Source of the DNA: Ischnura elegans
Taxonomy: Eukaryota > Arthropoda > Insecta > Odonata > Coenagrionidae
Direction: 5' to 3'
Length of the DNA: 64,000 bases
Assembly (NCBI RefSeq): GCF_921293095.1
Contig: NC_060254.1
Location: 60,620,069 to 60,684,068 of the forward strand
Part shown: positions 34,409-45,100 of the stretch, piece by piece
Position numbering within the stretch: the first letter of the stretch is position 1
How the letters are laid out: every line of letters begins with the position of its first letter
Notes under the pieces: model-generated
What the model saw: the letters and a program-made list of their open reading frames with translations, nothing else
The model's database searches: none
Told to the model about the DNA's origin: nothing
Translations under genes and position numbers: made by a program

Positions 34409-34640
34409 TCCTGGGGGTCTATTCTGGTTCTTTCTGGCTATAGCAACCGCGATTTGTGGAAAAAATTGGCGAACGGTGACTGAATTCGTATTCTCGTTTT
34501 CATTCGTTAGGTATTTCGCAAGATAAGCTTCGCTTCGTTCCTCTGGCGACGAAAAAGTTATTCTCGTTATGTCTGGCGAGCAATTATCGAATGTAAACAT
34601 TCGATAAGAGCGAATTTTGTTAGCGACGACAATGAACTCG
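34409..34640 (+). promoter_or_regulatory. Harbinger left end with repeated subterminal motif
   Basis: ATTCTGGTTCTTTCTGGC (34421), ATTCTCGTTTTCATTCG (about 34490), CTTCGTTCCTCTGGCG (about 34533) and ATTCTCGTTATGTCTGGCG (34560) are variants of one motif, also present in inverted form at the right end. In studied Harbinger elements the Myb-like protein binds subterminal sites; these are candidates by analogy only. Confidence 0.55.
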
Positions 34641-34824
34641 CTCTAGCGACTCGGCGAAAGAATTGATGAGAGAACGACTCGTGATTTAATTACAGCTATA
34701 CACCATTATTATGTTACATTTTTGATCCCAATTAGATTAATTGTTATTTTAGTGCTTGGCATGCAACGCGCCTTGTTGTTCTACGTAATTAAATTGATGG
34801 GATTAAAAGTGGGTTTTCATTTGA

Positions 34825-37427
34825 ATGAACCGTGAAGCTTTTGTGTCATTAGTGTTTGCGTTGAAGACGGGAATGGCGGCCTTACAACCGATGCTAAATG
34901 CGTTAGCTGCGGAAGTGGAGGAAAATGAAGAGGCTGCGGTGATGCGTTCCCTGAGGGATAGAAGTAACGCATTCGATCTTTCGGATGAAAGATTTAGGAG
35001 GTACTTCCGCCTCTCCAAAGATGCAGCTAGGTATTTGTGCAATGCCATCAGAGAAACATTCCGACGTCAGCGTTCACATGCCCTTAGTGTGGAAATTCAG
35101 GTATGTCAAGCAATGAATAGTTTTATTCACATTGGTTTAATGTTCATGAATTTGAAGTGTCTTTTATCTCCTTTATATAGGTATTAGCAGCGCTGAGATT
35201 TTTCGCTGTTGGCTCATATCAGCGAGCCGTTGGGCAGGAGCGATTTATATCGATGTCCCAGCCTGCTATCAGCAGAGCTGTTAGAAAGGTTTCGAAAGCA
35301 ATAACAGAAAAACTTGGTAGTGAATGGGTTAAGTTCCCCATAAACGAGGAGCAGCGGAACACGATAAAGAGGAGGTTTGATACATTTTTTTATGCTTTAT
35401 ATGAATATATGCACAGGCTACCTGAATTAGCAAAGAGTGAATTATGTGTATGATTTTACACTTTCCCGACGAATAACTTTAGAAAAATCTTCTCGGGATT
35501 GCGCGCGGGTAAGATTATTTAAGAGCGCCGACGTTTCGGGTACCGACTCGCTACCGAATGAATTGCGAATGAATGGTGAGAATGGGTAGCGAGTCGGTAC
35601 CCGAAACGTCGGCGCTCTTAAATAATCTTACCCGCGCGCAATCCCGAGAAGATTTTTCTAAAGTGAATTATGTGGTTGTGTAATTTTATTCTGTTCCTAG
35701 ATGAATCACATTAATTTGACTGACTCCGAAATGTTACTTTATAACTGTGAGATTAAAGAGTGACTATATGTTTCAACCATTATGATAGGTTTCGACAAAC
35801 TCGTCAAATGAAAGGGGTAGTCGGCTGCATGGATTGCACCCATATTGCAATAATACGGCCGAAACAAAATGAGGAGGCCTATCTTAATCATAAGGGATAT
35901 CATTCTTTAAATGTGCTGGCCGTGAGTATTTTTTTCCTTTAACTATTTTCAAAAGTTATTTGGGTGTTTTTCCTTTTGGAGTTTTAAATTGCTAAAGGAT
36001 GTTTTGTATCAAATAGAAGTATACATAAATGACTAATTGAGGACTCTAGAAGCCAGAGAGTGAAGTGGAATTTTGGAGATAAGTGCAAAAAGTAATAAGA
36101 GAATTAATAAAATATCTATCAGAAAGCCGTAAAACTTATCATTCGTCTTATAAATTTTTTGGAGGGCATCCACACCTCATGTTTACCCTGGCGGGTATGC
36201 TATACCCCCATACTCTCCAGTATTAGTTGCACCTGAAACCCCCCTAACCTTAATTCCTAGCTGCGCCCCTGCCACCAACTATCATCTGCATTTATCTCCA
36301 AAATTATAAGAATTGCAATTGCACCCCTCGGCTACTAGGGGTCCTCAAATCCATACCCAAAGATGAATTAAATATGGGGGCAATTTTTTTTGCTTTTTTA
36401 CAATTGTTGTACTCAAACTAATGCCTTTACAATTGTGTAGCGCACAAATATTACAAATTCCATGAATATTTTTTTCATGAATTGGACTTGTATATTCTAC
36501 ATTTAAGTGTTAAAATGAGAAATTATGAAGGAGTTTATAAATAAATAAAATTATCATAAATAATTTTTATCAGAGCAAAAATTCTCATTTGTTGTTACCC
36601 AAACAAATTTTTGGGGACCTGAATGATTTTGGAGTGGTAGCATAAATGTTTCCTCTTTTTATTTTGAAATTTATGAATGGGGAAGAAACCTCATCATGTT
36701 TTTCAGGATAAATTTTGGAGATGTCATGGCAATATCACATTGACCTACATTTCAATGTTATTGTATTACGGCTGTACTCTTATGTTTCAATTCCATTCAA
36801 GGTATGTTCTCATGATTTGGAATTCCTGGCAGTTGTTAGTCGCTATCCTGGGTCGGTGCACGATTCATTTATATGGAGACACTCCACCATAAGGGACAGG
36901 ATGATTGAGAACTGGGATGCAGGTGACCACTCATCTTGGCTATTAGGTATCACTTTATTAGAAGCCATTCTATATTTTTTTTAAATATTAAGTTTGACCG
37001 AAGGATTAATGACTTATACAAAATTTAATCTACAGGAGATTCAGGATTTCCTTTAGAGCCCTGGCTCATGACCCCAATAGTAAATGCTGAAGAAGGTACC
37101 CCAGAGGCTCGATATACTGAAGCCCATTGCCGAACAAGAAATTGCATTGAAAGGGCATTTGGGGTATTAAAAAACACCTTCCGATGTCTTCTACAGCACA
37201 GAACTCTGCATTATAATCCAGCTCATGCGGCTTGTATTGTACTGGCTTGTTGTATCCTCCATAATATTAGGATAAGATTTAATATACAAGATACTCCAAT
37301 TCATGGTGACATTGCAGGTGATGAAGGAAATGTAGAAGCTGCAGAGCAGCCTGCTGTTGAGCAGGGAGACAGGCTTCCGGAGGGTGTTAGAATTAGGAAT
37401 TTGTTAGTCAGGGGATTTAGAAATTAG
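34825..37427 (+). CDS. Harbinger transposase (HARBI1-like nuclease, DDE), intact, 5 exons
   Basis: The DDE transposase/nuclease that cuts and joins element ends. Exons: 34825-35100, 35181-35374, 35789-35921, 36802-36946, 37036-37427 (276, 194, 133, 145, 392 nt). All introns have GT/AG borders and all phases join, giving 379 codons with no stop; HARBI1 relatives are typically around 350-400. An N-terminal region (to about residue 150) contains the helix-turn-helix-like block MSQPAISRAVRKVSKAI. The catalytic domain carries D172 (GVVGCMDCTHIAI), D222 (RYPGSVHDSFIW) and E288 (RTRNCIERAFGVLK); R284, E288 and K295 fit the R-X3-E-X6-K signature of the related IS5 group. GDSGFPLEPWLMTP and the C-terminal IVLACCILHNIR block are also typical of the family. 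The start is the first ATG of the open exon. Intron 2 contains a 213-bp palindrome and intron 3 a hAT-type fragment. Not recognised: a poly(A) signal. Confidence 0.93.
35449..35661. repeat. CGAAAC-motif palindrome inserted in transposase intron 2, 13-bp target duplication
   Basis: AGTGAATTATGTG occurs exactly at 35436-35448 and again at 35662-35674, a clean 13-bp target duplication. Between them, arms of about 80 bp pair nearly perfectly (TTTAGAAAAATCTTCTCGGG, ATTGCGCGCGGGTAAGATT, AAGAGCGCCGACGTTTCGGG, TACCGACTCGCTACC and their complements). The left side has an extra 20-25 unpaired bases. The long duplication argues for target-primed insertion rather than for a DNA transposon. Confidence 0.93.
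36030..36271 (-). repeat. GGGGCGCAGCTAGGA hAT-type repeat, copy in transposase intron 3
   Basis: The minus strand begins CAGGGGCGCAGCTAGGAATT and continues GGGGGGTTTCAGGTGCAACT, AGCATACCCGCCAGGGTAAA and GTTTTACGGCTTTCTGATAG, matching the element at 55514-55809. The opposite terminal repeat is missing, so this copy is truncated. Confidence 0.8.
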
Positions 37428-37577
37428 GTATTGCTTTGGGTTCAGGGTTAAAAAGTTTGAAATGTTATTTATTTAGAAATTTTGCAATATACATGTATTA
37501 TTATTATTTTTTTTTTATATATTATGCTTTGTTAATGCAGCTTGCAATTAGGCTTGAGTGTAAAAAAAACATGTTTA
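37428..37577. other. Intergenic gap between the convergent Harbinger genes
   Basis: About 150 bp separate the two stop codons. The Myb gene's AATAAA lies here (minus strand, overlapping its stop). The T-rich tract at 37500-37520 may serve transposase 3' end formation. Confidence 0.7.
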
Positions 37578-39884
37578 TTAAAAAGATGGAGGTTTAACTA
37601 AATTTGCTGCAATTATTGCCAGGGACTGTGCAATTGATTGCAGGGTTTCTGATATGTTGTTGACATTGCTATTCAGATCCTGAAAGGCAATAAATAATTT
37701 TAGATGGATAATATGCAAAGATATTAGCTGATATTGTGAAGTTAACAAAATGAATTGGTTTTGAAACCTGCAGCAATTCATTAGTTTTTCTTTGCATCTT
37801 TTGTAAATCATCAGTCGCAGCACACATTTTTTCCATTAAATTTCTCTTTCCTAAAAATATAAGAAAAGAAATGTTAATTTAAAACTAGTTGGTAGCTAAA
37901 GCATTGAAGTTATTGATAAACATTGTGGGTTATTTAAGTATGATGATGAGATTTGTTGATGTAATTGATATAAGTAAGGTAACATGTATTTTGTAATATA
38001 TTATGTATCATAAAAGTCATGATTATCTTATAAATATATGTCATGTCCAATGATTAACTGACAGGGATAACACTAGTTTTTGGCAATAAAATAAGTGCCT
38101 TTCAAAAAAATCTCAGTTTCTAACATCCTTATGACTTTTAGCTATGATAATAGACAGCATCCCAGAAGAGAGAGTATCCATACATAAATTTATTTTTTAA
38201 AACGTAGGTTGCAATAATCATTGGGTCATACATGCCATATAAATTTTAAGCAGTCATATATATATTTGGATTTTAGATGTTTTGATAAGCATATTACATG
38301 ATATGAGAAATTCCAAATATTTGACAAGTTTCAAAAAGGACAGAGAAACTGAAAAATGAGAATAAGTGCACACATATTTTGTCACCAACCTTTGGAATAG
38401 ATATTTTTTAAATATTTGATTTATTTCTATTAATCACCTGTCAAAGGAGTCCTTGCAGAAGTTGATGGTCTAGAATTAGGTGGAGATGGGGGTGGTTGAG
38501 GTGGGCTATTGACCTATGCGGAAGGATGTATACATATTAATACTGGCATGCAACAAAGATATTAATCTTCTCTTCAATATAATGTATTAATTCACTTTGT
38601 TGGATTACTTACAATTGTTTCCTCTTGAAACTCCTCCTCTAAGTGACAAGGTGCTTCTGTTATTTCACAATTAATGACCTCTTCATATTCATTTCCTTCA
38701 GTGCACTGATAGAAAAGGCTATTCGTTAGATCTCTAGGAAAAACATTTATTCTGATTGTTTACATGAGAAAATTATAAGCTTACCACGGTGAGCCCCAGG
38801 TCAGGTATGTCAGCTATTCCTATTGAGGAGCATTCACCAATCACACAGACTACCTTTCTATCTAGGTCACCTAGCTCAGGGGGTACTAAGGTGTTGCCAG
38901 TCATAGTTGCGGCTTTGTTTATTTTGGCCACCCGTGCTCGAACGTGGCAGCGGAGGTCTGCCCAACACTGTAAGGTACAATTATTTCAGATTTTACATAC
39001 ATTTTCAAAATTTTAAGAACTAGTTACTACAATGAGGAAAGAGAAACTATAAAATGGTCACTTCCATCCCACCTGTCACTATGCTTGACAGAACACTAGT
39101 GGTTACCTAAGTGAACTCCAAGCAACTATATTGTGCAAAAACCTTTTTCCATTCAGACACTGCCTTATCAGCCCCTGGAAAATCATTCAGGGTGTCTGCC
39201 AGCCTCTCCCATTGATTCTTCTGATGTGCTTTTCCTTGTCCACCATTCAAACGCCCGGCAGCAAACTCCTTGTGTGCTAACATATAATCAACTAAATAAT
39301 TCAGTTGATCTCCAGACGCTCGGGCATTTCTACGCTCTGCTTTTGCTTAAAAATAACGAGGTAGTATTTAAGTCATGATCAGTTAAAAATTAATTAAAAC
39401 TATTTTTTAAGATTACCTATGTATTGTCAACATTTGCACTGCGCAGACCACTACACCATCTACGTTTTAAGTCATAAGTGAGAATTTGGATTCGATATGG
39501 TAATAGATGTTAATTTAAGCTATTCCCTGAGGACAAACATTGGTAACGTATCTCCATTTTGCCGCATTATGGATACATTTACTATTGGTTGTTATGTAAA
39601 AGTTTCCAAAAGTGTAAGGATCTTGAGCCTAATAGTTGTTCTTCCAGTGAATAGACTACAACAAACACCGGTGACATGCACAAACGATAGAAAAAAGCAT
39701 TTACTGATGTTTCTCTTAAATATATTTTTAATGGATGTTAAGCTCATGATAACTATTACATTTATGATTAATTCCATAGTTAAAAATGACAAACACGAAA
39801 ATAAAAATGGTAAATTTTTAACAACTTAGGTTTAAACTGAATATACAAACCTATTAATTTCATCGGAGTGGCTTTTGGACTCAT
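37578..39884 (-). CDS. Harbinger Myb/SANT-like DNA-binding protein, intact, 7 exons
   Basis: The second Harbinger protein, which binds element DNA and helps bring the transposase to it. Exons on the minus strand, from the start: 39884-39851, 39345-39143, 38967-38785, 38705-38613, 38513-38438, 37850-37768, 37679-37578 (34, 203, 183, 93, 76, 83, 102 nt). Borders are GT/AG throughout; the 774 nt encode 257 residues with no stop. Residues 13-100 form a trihelix Myb/SANT-like domain with spaced tryptophans W57, W77 and W81 (NQWERLADTLN; AVSEWKK joined to CWADLRCHVRARVAKIN). A proline-rich linker (SPPQPPPSPPNSRP, about 174-188) precedes a C-terminal helix likely to form a coiled coil (DLQKMQRKTNELLQ, NISETLQSIAQSLAIIAANL). 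The stop overlaps AATAAA. An acceptor-like TTTTATAG lies just upstream of the ATG, so a 5' untranslated exon further right is probable. Start chosen as the first ATG; a second (codon 8) is possible. Confidence 0.93.
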
Positions 39885-40110
39885 AGTGATTACCCCTATA
39901 AAATTTTAAAAACAAATAGAATGGTTACAACTACAAATATGGAGAACGAATAATGAATTAACAACATTGTATAATAATACTTAGAGCCGGTTTTATAATT
40001 TCTGGTTAAACCATACAAGTAAACCATAAATTACATGGACACTGAATGACTACTTGTGAATGGCTCCAATCAAAGTGGAATCCCTGTGCAAGAAATATTG
40101 GTAATTTTGG

Positions 40111-41074
40111 TTTGTGCTTATTACACGGTAACGAAGATTCTCATTTGTATCGTGAAACCAATTGAAATGGTTTTCTATTGAGTAGACCACCAGTGCGATT
40201 TTAGGAACATTTGTGGCTACAATGTTATCATAATAAGGATAAATTTTAATCATACTTTTGGAGTAAGGTGTATCTTCTTAGCGTTATTATGGACCGTACG
40301 CAAGTTTATCATCATCTCTGCATAACTTACAGAATTAGAAACTATTTGCAAGTTGTGAATAATCAAAACCTTTCCTGTTTTCAAAGTACTCACCATGGCC
40401 ATAATTTCAATAACAGAATTTATAACCAACCACCATCTAATAGACAAATCCATCAGTGTTCATTGTAAATGATAGCGTGCAGAATGACTTCTGTCACACT
40501 GAAGATGTCATTGTTATGATCAATTAAATCACAAATAATTCATTGTAATTCATTTGATTATTTTTCTGTTTTTATAGAAGCATTTTCAGTTTTGTTAAAA
40601 TGTTCACAATAAGGAGGTATCTTCAGGCATTTGCCACTCATGTAACAGACACGAAAAGAATTCAGCCATATAATAGTCAGCTAGCAGCAGATATTTCATA
40701 ACTTCAAATTATCCCATGTTATTTATGGATATATATACATATATACTATTGAGAAGCAATATGTTTCATGAAATCCATAATCTATGGCAAATAAAATTTC
40801 AATGAGGGACAGTGCTAAGTTTAAAGTTCTTCATTAGGGAGACAAAACATATTGCATCACACCAAGTAGCCTTTACCATTGAAGTACAAGGTGAAATATA
40901 TTTTGATACTGGCTGTCAATAGTGTAGTTCATATTGTGTAATAGGGAGAACTGTGAGTCTTAATGGTTAGGGCATTGATAACTTATTCATTGCCATCGTA
41001 AAAGTGAATAGATGATCAGAAATCACTGATTATGAACGTAACTTCACTGTCTAAAATTAGAATAGATATGAATG
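40111..41074. repeat. Left arm of a 964-bp inverted repeat
   Basis: This arm and 42971-43934 are reverse complements with exactly equal length and no detectable indels; every stretch compared was identical. Both arms carry the same 67-codon open frame (MDLSIRWWLV... to ...IHLTPKV), read outward on opposite strands. Just outside the arms the flanks are still weakly related (AAGAAATATTGGTAATTTT against AAGAAATAGTGGTAAATTA). No transposase is recognised in it. Confidence 0.95.
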
Positions 41075-42970
41075 AAAATAGTTTGAATAACTAAAGAATA
41101 ACCCTACCACAGCTACTTCAAGGGCTCATAGCCTAGTAAACTTGCCATCCAATTATTAAATGAATGTTCAGTTTGCAGCACACCTTTCATGCTTTACAAG
41201 TAGGCTGCATTTTGTTATAACAATATGCATATGTAACAAAATGTTGCTAATCTTTTTGGCTCATAGCTAGGGATGGGGATCTATTTTTTATGGGAAGACT
41301 ATTTTTGCAAACCTTATGTATGTTATAAACTATGTCAACCTTAATGAGTAGATCACTTATTACAGGAAGTAATGGAATGAGATATCTAGTCACACATTGT
41401 TACAAGTGTTGATGATTTCACACATAATGTATTTTTGAAACTATTTACTCATTATTGATAGTACTATGGATGGAGAAGGAAAAAAATAGTAAAAGGTATG
41501 TATGGGATTGAAATCCTAAGGAACTAACATGTGTACCAGATATGTGATGTAAAATGATTGTTATAGGAATGAAACTATACCAAGAATTACATTCAAGACT
41601 TCGAAAGGGTTATCAGTAAAACTATACATTACAATATTTCTACTGAATTTATTATGATAAAACTCAGTGGAAATATTGAGAATTCTAATTTTACTAATAC
41701 AAAGAACTTCCGCCATATCTTGCCTTACATAATAAAACATACTTTGAAAGAGCTTATTGTTGAAAAAGTTTCAGTGGTCAATGATGAGCATGGAAAATAA
41801 TGGGTGGTGAATGCAGTCATCTCCGGTTAATTTAAACTAATGAGGAAATCCATAGGTACACAGACTACAGCTTTCCCCAATAGCAAGAGTGGCCCAGCTG
41901 GCTCAATATTATAAGACATACAACTGACTCTGATTGTTTCAAACATTCCCCTCACATTCAATACTTGAGAACCTAATATAATATATTCCCTTAGCATACA
42001 ATGATTGAGAACCTTAATATAATATACATATTCCCTTAGCAGACTATGATTGAGAACCTTGATATAATATTTCTTTGATTAATCTAGCTTTGATGTTCTA
42101 TGAGTCTTCAGGTGTAAGGGTCCAAATTCTCACCTTGAATTAAAGCTCAAATTTTTGGAATAAAATCAAACTTTTTAAAGGTTAAAGCATCGATTTGTTT
42201 ACTTTCACCATATTAAAATATTCAAACCTGAAATAAGATAAATAATTATTGGCAACCAAACTGGCACTCTTATGTACTAACCTGAGGTATAGGCACCACT
42301 GATTCTATGACTCTGAAGCTACTTCTAACTGTAGATAATTTGATAAGAAGTTTTAATAGTACATAACCTGTGTTTAGCTACGAACAGCATTAGGGCTATA
42401 AAGACACATTTTTTTCGTAGAAGACAATACATTAGAACATGCAAAGAAGGGAAGACTTCTCTTGCTTAAGGTGGCTTTCTAAATCTTTTTCTACCGACAG
42501 GATGAGAGTTCATCGCTTAGTCAAAAAATGTACAATACTAGGTCAACTTCCACATTCTAAACGCTCATCTGCCAAAGGAGTTCATTTATAATTAATATTT
42601 CAAACTATCTTATGAGCAAATCAGTCATTCATACTTACTGTACCCACACAAGCTGTATTGGCTGCATCAATTATCAATTCTCAACTACCAAAGAAAACTC
42701 AAACTGCATCTTTTATATTAAACGTACGAAATGTGCTAAATCCTATCTTTTTCACGCAATCTTTCACTTGCCAGACTCATTCCCACATACTCATCAACAA
42801 GAAATACCAAGCCGTAAGCCACATATTGTTATTGAAATTACCAGCAAATTTTATTGTAGTACTTTGAAAAACATAACCTTAGGAAAAGACAATAGGAAAA
42901 TATTTTAACAGCTTACCACCTTTCACCTCATAACATATATCCTCACAAATATTTATGAATTATAAACTGA
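41075..42970. other. Spacer of the inverted repeat; contains a small tandem array
   Basis: AT-rich, 1.9 kb. At 41955-42080 a unit of about 50 bp is repeated about 2.5-3 times (TTGAGAACCT, TATAATATA, TTCCCTTAGCA). A 98-codon frame at 42612-42908 matches no family. Confidence 0.6.
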
Positions 42971-43934
42971 CATTCATATCTATTCTAATTTTAGACAGTG
43001 AAGTTACGTTCATAATCAGTGATTTCTGATCATCTATTCACTTTTACGATGGCAATGAATAAGTTATCAATGCCCTAACCATTAAGACTCACAGTTCTCC
43101 CTATTACACAATATGAACTACACTATTGACAGCCAGTATCAAAATATATTTCACCTTGTACTTCAATGGTAAAGGCTACTTGGTGTGATGCAATATGTTT
43201 TGTCTCCCTAATGAAGAACTTTAAACTTAGCACTGTCCCTCATTGAAATTTTATTTGCCATAGATTATGGATTTCATGAAACATATTGCTTCTCAATAGT
43301 ATATATGTATATATATCCATAAATAACATGGGATAATTTGAAGTTATGAAATATCTGCTGCTAGCTGACTATTATATGGCTGAATTCTTTTCGTGTCTGT
43401 TACATGAGTGGCAAATGCCTGAAGATACCTCCTTATTGTGAACATTTTAACAAAACTGAAAATGCTTCTATAAAAACAGAAAAATAATCAAATGAATTAC
43501 AATGAATTATTTGTGATTTAATTGATCATAACAATGACATCTTCAGTGTGACAGAAGTCATTCTGCACGCTATCATTTACAATGAACACTGATGGATTTG
43601 TCTATTAGATGGTGGTTGGTTATAAATTCTGTTATTGAAATTATGGCCATGGTGAGTACTTTGAAAACAGGAAAGGTTTTGATTATTCACAACTTGCAAA
43701 TAGTTTCTAATTCTGTAAGTTATGCAGAGATGATGATAAACTTGCGTACGGTCCATAATAACGCTAAGAAGATACACCTTACTCCAAAAGTATGATTAAA
43801 ATTTATCCTTATTATGATAACATTGTAGCCACAAATGTTCCTAAAATCGCACTGGTGGTCTACTCAATAGAAAACCATTTCAATTGGTTTCACGATACAA
43901 ATGAGAATCTTCGTTACCGTGTAATAAGCACAAA
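42971..43934. repeat. Right arm of the 964-bp inverted repeat
   Basis: Reverse complement of 40111-41074; positions in the two arms sum to 84045 throughout, so there are no net indels. It lies between the Myb gene and the right end of the Harbinger element. Confidence 0.95.
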
Positions 43935-44214
43935 CAGGGTTAATTTACCACTATTTCTTACGCGAGTAATTTTATTTTAACGACACACAGATGATTGACC
44001 ATATAAATCGTCAACGATTAAAACCGAAAATATTGGCTTAATCTACGTTTTCAAGGCTAACCATCACTTCAAAACAAACGTAAACAAACCTTTCACCATA
44101 CTCCACACTCGATTTTCCAATTCCGACTTTCGTTTGTTTCACTTTTCGCGTTCAATTGTTGGTATGAGAATTATCCATTTACGGGTATTCTTTATTACCT
44201 ACATCACAGTATTT

Positions 44215-44361
44215 CGCTAAGAGAACGAAGTTACCCGAACTGTAGCGATAGGAGGAGCGAAAAGAACGAGAATAATCGCGGAGAAAATTTTCGCTACGCT
44301 TCGAGTTGCCGTAGCGAAGCGGGGACCCGAGCGAAAGGAGAACGAGAATCACCGCCCTGGA
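44215..44361 (-). promoter_or_regulatory. Harbinger right end with repeated subterminal motif
   Basis: On the minus strand GATTCTCGTTCTCCTTTCGC (ending 44352) and TTATTCTCGTTCTTTTCGC (about 44275) repeat the motif found at the left end; a weaker ACTTCGTTCTCTTAGCG follows. This is also the likely promoter side of the Myb-like gene, if its 5' exon starts here. Confidence 0.5.
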
Positions 44362-44837: not shown

Positions 44838-45100
44838 TAAATCGAAACTTCAAGCTTTTACGTGGTGGAAGGGCTCCATATTAATAATGAAATACACTTT
44901 GTTACTTCCACAAAATTCACAAGAGTTTCTATTTATTACCGATTTCGGCTAATACACCATTTTCTAATACCTGTATTTGAAAATACACCATTTTCAAATA
45001 CCTGTATTTGAAAATGGTGTAATAGCCGAAACCGGTAATAAATAGAAACTGTGTGAATTTTGTGGAAGTAACAAAGTGTATTTCATTACTAATAGGGTTA
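44838..45100. repeat. CGAAAC-motif palindrome, same subfamily as 12.94-13.12 kb
   Basis: Arms (GAAATACACTTTGTTACTTC, CACAAAATTCACA, TTTCTATTTATTACCGATTT and complements) surround a centre of repeated ATACCTGTATTTGAAAAT. The right arm shows GGTGTAATAGCCGAAACCGG. To the left, AAATCGAAACTTCAAGCTT and TACGTGGTGGAAGGGCTCC match the flank of the 13-kb copy, inverted. Confidence 0.88.

Follow-up and report, generated by a model that had tools for sequence, protein, structure and literature searches.

Harbinger3_DR of zebrafish is a two-gene Harbinger transposon with a CWG-type target, and HARBI1 and NAIF1 constitute a domesticated pair of a transposase and a Myb/SANT-type partner. Within the PHIS (PIF/Harbinger-ISL2EU-Spy) superfamily, the NuwaI group is reported from animals only; its terminal inverted repeats (TIRs) measure 12-61 bp and usually have GGG first, and its autonomous candidates average ~4.46 kb (PMC4482050). 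Domesticated PLG/MADF pairs of insects are described as being without TIRs, target-site duplications (TSDs) and related copies (PMC9710019). Here, we analyzed a stretch of 64,000 nucleotides from Ischnura elegans (NC_060254.1, positions 60,620,069 to 60,684,068), in the following termed the window, which contains a complete element with a transposase gene and a Myb/SANT gene. As judged from its sequence, this element is a recently transposed and probably autonomous DNA transposon of the Harbinger superfamily that belongs to the NuwaI (CWG-target) group, a reading to which we assign a probability of roughly 0.9.

The 3-bp duplication of CWG type, the presence of a DDE transposase together with a separate Myb/SANT protein and the short ends starting with GG fit a placement in the NuwaI group and are shared with the description of that group. 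The element departs from this description in its length (9.94 kb against ~4.46 kb), in a palindromic part of 3.8 kb and in its right TIR, which starts with GGC instead of GGG (left GGGGTCTATTCTGGTTCT, right GGCGGTGATTCTCGTTCT; identity 13/18). It resembles Harbinger3_DR in having two genes and a CWG-type target, a likeness drawn from general description and not from sequence. With HARBI1/NAIF1 and with the insect PLG/MADF pairs it shares the combination of a transposase with a Myb/SANT- or MADF-type partner; in contrast to the insect pairs, which are without all three, it has TIRs, TSDs and related copies. Overall, the element is ordinary in kind and unusually well preserved: young, complete, two-gene and with a mosaic right end.

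For the copy search the left 3.2 kb and the Myb region were used as DNA queries, and the best candidates alone were scored. Two other complete copies were found, on C2 (111.434 Mb) and C6 (15.97-15.98 Mb), each 9,954 bp long, flanked by CAG/CAG and lying in different surroundings. Together with the CTG of the window, the target duplication is of CWG type in 3/3 full copies. The three copies differ pairwise by 0.31-0.32% substitutions (99.7% identity by substitutions), and the 47 variable columns are distributed in a star-like manner (private columns: window 15, C2 16, C6 16). In none of the three is the reading frame of either gene interrupted. A first-pass annotation of this DNA had named a recently active element as one of two alternatives and had proposed to look for matching termini and for copies with the same ends; both are present, with a separate 3-bp duplication at each of the three copies, in agreement with this alternative. 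The limits it had given for the element, 34409 and 44361, were moved inwards by about 5 bp to 34414 and 44356. A segmental duplication as the origin of the copies was rejected because the flanks read differ among the three and each copy has its own TSD.

When the joined flanks of the window element were used as query, two genomic places matched continuously over the insertion point (72-73% over ~100 bp, E-values 1e-6 and 5e-6); judged by these match values, they may be empty sites within an old repeat. A fourth copy, C4:91.15M (at 91.145 Mb), is interrupted twice and its match stops inside Myb exon 6, with no further element sequence in the 7 kb read onward from there. In the transposase part the identity is 98.9-99.1%, with four nonsynonymous and two synonymous differences from the window in 378 codons. 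Two observations limit the reading as a recently transposed, autonomous element: the candidate empty sites are weak (short and of low identity, as given above), and the scored candidates yielded only the three full copies and this interrupted one, which leaves the element a candidate for current activity.

The transposase gene could be reassembled as the first-pass annotation had drawn it, with five exons comprising 379 codons and the final stop, no stops within the frame, GT/AG at 4/4 introns and catalytic D172, D222 and E288 at the positions named. The protein matches DDE_Tnp_4 of Pfam (PF13359, E=1.5e-39, profile positions 1-158), and the three residues align to D, D and E in 6/8 other DDE_Tnp_4 loci of the genome (~3 distinct sequences), the remaining two giving no blastp match. 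Searches of PDB sequences with both proteins (best E 0.7 and 0.32) and of NCBIfam with the transposase only returned no meaningful match and no match, respectively. The first 16 residues are doubtful. In the three older copies that have the 5' region (3/3), the frame opened by the first ATG runs into a stop at residue 9, 21 or 9, the distance from this ATG to the one at 34873 is 272-278 bp as compared to 48 in the window, and the ATG at 34873 is kept; because of the early stops and the kept ATG, translation probably starts at Met17. Most transposase splice sites that could be aligned in older copies are kept. The exceptions are, in C4_32M, the sites on either side of exon 3, in C1_17M, the acceptor of exon 3 and the donor of exon 4, and in C5_32M, the acceptor of exon 5.

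The Myb/SANT gene, likewise described before as intact, was reproduced with seven exons, 257 codons and a stop, without internal stops and with GT/AG at all six introns. Its protein matches Myb_DNA-bind_5 (PF13873) with E=3.9e-11 over residues 17-94. The chance of 636 codons without a stop is ~5e-14 for equal base frequencies; as the free choice of splice sites is ignored, this value makes the case look stronger than it is. An older relative at C5:32118260-32126705 (C5:32.12M or C5_32M; L043, L047, L048, L051) has a fully open Myb gene and a broken transposase exon 5 with five stops and a frameshift. Its seven Myb exons contain one in-frame 3-bp insertion, 6/6 introns are of the GT/AG type, and the synonymous and nonsynonymous divergence is 0.29 (dS) and 0.15 (dN), respectively. 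The predicted exon structure of both genes thereby has independent support from diverged copies.

It could be argued that the copies, open as they are, were moved in trans by active proteins from another source while the encoded pair itself is inactive. The small number of full copies, just three, and the many other Harbinger transposase and Myb/SANT matches in the genome speak for this explanation; against it, each of the three copies has both reading frames open, the close relatives are damaged or partial, and the other transposases among the matches listed are only ~33-67% identical over the matched stretch. In detail, C4_32M and C1_17M carry stops and frameshifts, C5_32M is broken in exon 5, C6_26M has three stops, and C6_35M is open over exons 1-3, the only part of it that matched. 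We therefore consider mobilization in trans improbable.

Furthermore, we asked how selection has acted on the two genes. A gene pair kept by selection was the other alternative of the first-pass annotation. Variable sites among the three young copies amount to 9/1914 in exons and 19/4014 in non-coding sequence outside the palindrome and the hairpin (0.47% each), as well as 16/1896 in the palindrome loop and 2/1930 in its arms; exons are not significantly less variable than the non-coding sequence and the loop (P=0.60). The comparison of nonsynonymous with synonymous changes between copies, proposed earlier as a test, gave 5:4, not different from neutral (P=0.12, at low power), and shows no sign of selection since the copies separated. 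Deeper in the lineage the pattern is different. Four older relatives (C4_32M, C1_17M, C6_35M and C6_26M) were used to polarize the stem leading to the window, with 360 codons compared and 11 ambiguous. On this stem 37 transposase codons changed synonymously and 12 nonsynonymously, as against 16 synonymous and 54 nonsynonymous private changes and six stops in the older copies (Fisher P=1e-8, stops left out). The stem changes cannot be assigned separately to the window branch and the older branch; they are constrained in either case. From the purifying ratio on the stem, together with the neutral ratio and the stops in the older copies, it follows that the predicted transposase was maintained while the lineage transposed and that copies decay neutrally once inserted. 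Live transposon lineages usually show just this combination of selection on the stem and neutral decay thereafter.

A domesticated transposase/Myb pair kept by the host in the manner of HARBI1/NAIF1 or the insect PLG/MADF pairs, for which the two open frames and the strong past purifying selection on the transposase lineage could be cited, is rejected as highly improbable, given TIR-like ends and TSDs, near-identical copies elsewhere with their own TSDs, coding sequence that changed as fast as the non-coding sequence outside the palindrome since the copies split, and the criteria of PMC9710019, by which domesticated pairs have neither TIRs and TSDs nor related copies. Nor does selection at this locus follow from inserts lying next to clean exons, as had been argued: all three copies share the internal insertions, which thus travelled with the element, and it is the youth of the copies that has left their exons clean.

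The recently transposed element carries a right part that resembles a family of non-autonomous elements of the same genome sharing its ends, here named N. A search with the right end (40 scored candidates) gave 35 matching loci besides the three copies, 28 of them at 93-98% identity (24 over ~400 bp) and seven at 89-92% over ~210 bp. Their matches to the palindrome arm are at 84-91%, and many also have the left end at 86-90%. In several N elements the ends are 8.2-8.3 kb apart, in others 5.8 to 16 kb. One of them, C6:8671713-8680005 (L025, L073), is 8,293 bp long, is flanked by CAG/CAG and contains a single, fragmented arm ahead of its right end. It has no DNA match to the window genes and no open reading frame (ORF) recognizable as a transposase; its ORFs resemble what we take to be a broken reverse transcriptase of a long interspersed nuclear element (LINE). 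The arm match breaks at the same place in other N copies, which suggests that a LINE-like passenger was amplified together with the family. The left terminus occurs at 49 loci of the genome with at most one mismatch, four of which are autonomous-type copies; among the other 45, both ends were read in 13, and 10/13 have the same trinucleotide on both sides.

At the right end, the window differs from the 13 paired N copies by 1.8-3.5% in 12 cases and by 5.8% in one (N-N mean 2.1, maximum 6.8%), and from nine further N right ends read alone by 1.8-3.8% (8) or 6.3% (1). The corresponding values are 7.7-8.7% at the left end (13 paired copies; N-N mean 3.9, maximum 7.9%) and 8.9-11.6% in the palindrome arm (7 N copies; N-N 0.5-6.2%). 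The tree of left ends places the window among older autonomous copies (support 0.88), and that of right ends places it inside N. With three loci of a more distant subgroup, C1_17M and C5_32M as outgroups, a tree holding the N right ends apart from the window was rejected by the approximately unbiased test (P=0.03). The apparent right end of C1_17M lies inverted and to the left of its left end; it probably belongs to a separate element, and it was kept as outgroup. C5_32M has just ~0.23 kb between the stretch matching to 39977 and the stretch starting at 44200, and ~4 kb may therefore have been gained in the lineage of the window. Overall, the distances and the trees suggest that the right end of the window element was captured from its non-autonomous relative N. 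Several findings have to be set against this conclusion: the distant subgroup, three of whose ten loci served as outgroup, is 9.8-10.4% from the window at the right end (10/10 read); the Kishino-Hasegawa and Shimodaira-Hasegawa tests give P=0.05 and hence no rejection; 3/13 paired N copies are without matching TSDs; and the older copy C4_32M carries loop-like sequence (42422-42895, 80%) ~0.5 kb past its Myb remnant, which also speaks against a simple gain of the ~4 kb, as some of this material may be old.

The palindrome had been placed in an intron by the first-pass annotation; it sits between the Myb start and the right end. It was also considered as a separate inserted transposon with a TSD of its own, which was rejected on the lack of matching flanks by eye at 40110/43935 and on homologues inside non-autonomous elements. 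The 965-bp arms have no mismatch in the window and in C6 and one in C2. Their variability is lower than that of the loop (P=6e-4) and lower than that of the rest of the element with its 45 variable columns (P=0.005), in a test picked after the data were seen. The two variable columns of the arms form one paired site, 40177/43868, reading A/T in the window, T/A in C6 and T/T in C2, which suggests arm-to-arm conversion at this site. In maize, Mu killer is an inverted-repeat silencer. By analogy, the palindrome might be more than a passenger, as its hairpin, if transcribed, could yield double-stranded RNA against the whole family, whereby the element would bring along a brake on itself, an idea that we regard as a long shot. 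A 45-bp tandem repeat is present within the loop at 41974-42070 (2.1 copies, or 3 under looser matching). All three full copies as well as C4:91.15M carry the 214-bp hairpin of transposase intron 2, and three older copies lack it; it was found at 36 other loci among 40 scored candidates. The coordinates of all features are compiled in Table 1.

Table 1. Features of the two-gene element in the window (positions within the 64,000 nucleotides)
Feature	Position	Strand	Basis or remark
Complete two-gene Harbinger element (NuwaI-type), 9943 bp	34414..44356	+	two further copies (9954 bp each) with same ends, different flanks
Left target-site duplication CTG	34411..34413	.	C2 and C6 copies carry CAG/CAG
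Right target-site duplication CTG	44357..44359	.	pairs with CTG at 34411..34413
Left end	34414..34815	+	imperfect TIR; 13/18 first positions match right end
Transposase exon 1	34825..35100	+	start probably ATG 34873, not 34825
Transposase exon 2	35181..35374	+	gene model reassembled
Hairpin repeat in transposase intron 2	35449..35662	.	13-bp direct repeat AGTGAATTATGTG at 35436-35448 and 35663-35675
Transposase exon 3 (D172)	35789..35921	+	gene model; triad alignment
Transposase exon 4 (D222)	36802..36946	+	gene model; triad alignment
Transposase exon 5 (E288), ends at stop	37036..37427	+	gene model; triad alignment
Myb/SANT exon 7, ends at stop	37578..37679	-	gene model; diverged copy
Myb/SANT exon 6	37768..37850	-	gene model; diverged copy
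Myb/SANT exon 5	38438..38513	-	gene model; diverged copy
Myb/SANT exon 4	38613..38705	-	gene model; diverged copy
Myb/SANT exon 3	38785..38967	-	gene model; diverged copy
Myb/SANT exon 2, bulk of Myb_DNA-bind_5 domain	39143..39345	-	gene model; Pfam
Myb/SANT exon 1	39851..39884	-	gene model reassembled
Palindrome left arm, perfect, 965 bp	40110..41074	+	homologue in non-autonomous family
Palindrome loop	41075..42970	+	homologous, inverted, to non-autonomous family interior
Palindrome right arm	42971..43935	-	inverted repeat of left arm
Right end, probably captured	43960..44356	+	last 397 bp close to non-autonomous copies

Following the roles of the two proteins in the superfamily (PMC9179366), the Myb/SANT protein would bind the ends of the element and assist nuclear entry of the DDE transposase, which would cut the element out and insert it at CWG. 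The three copies would stem from one source in a short burst, as their 15, 16 and 16 private substitutions indicate, and this source would already have had both the palindrome and the hairpin of intron 2, which moved along as passengers. The right-hand 4 kb would represent a mosaic related to N, most simply read as the product of an autonomous element that gained inverted N-like material and later the right end of N, possibly through template switching while a gap was repaired. Because the element seems to carry the N right end, its two proteins plausibly also mobilize family N.

A strong hairpin with inverted repeats of 61 bp and 46 bp and a 31-bp tandem unit lies at 44876-45097, ~500 bp past the right end of the element, and a tRNA scan of the whole window found none. 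Elsewhere in the genome, at C3:1393190-1395533, C3:125913463-125916317 and C13:11983282-11986312, a Harbinger transposase match and an oppositely oriented Myb/SANT match are ~2-3 kb apart. From such matches the genome seems to be rich in two-gene Harbinger families.

Overall, the element of the window provides a clean example, within one genome, of a live two-gene lineage: its stem was under selection, its older copies decayed neutrally, and a burst gave rise to young ones. An autonomous element that seemingly has the right end of a non-autonomous relative would link both families to a single transposase. Should the palindrome silence or homogenize the family, the element would also offer a testable system of self-regulation.

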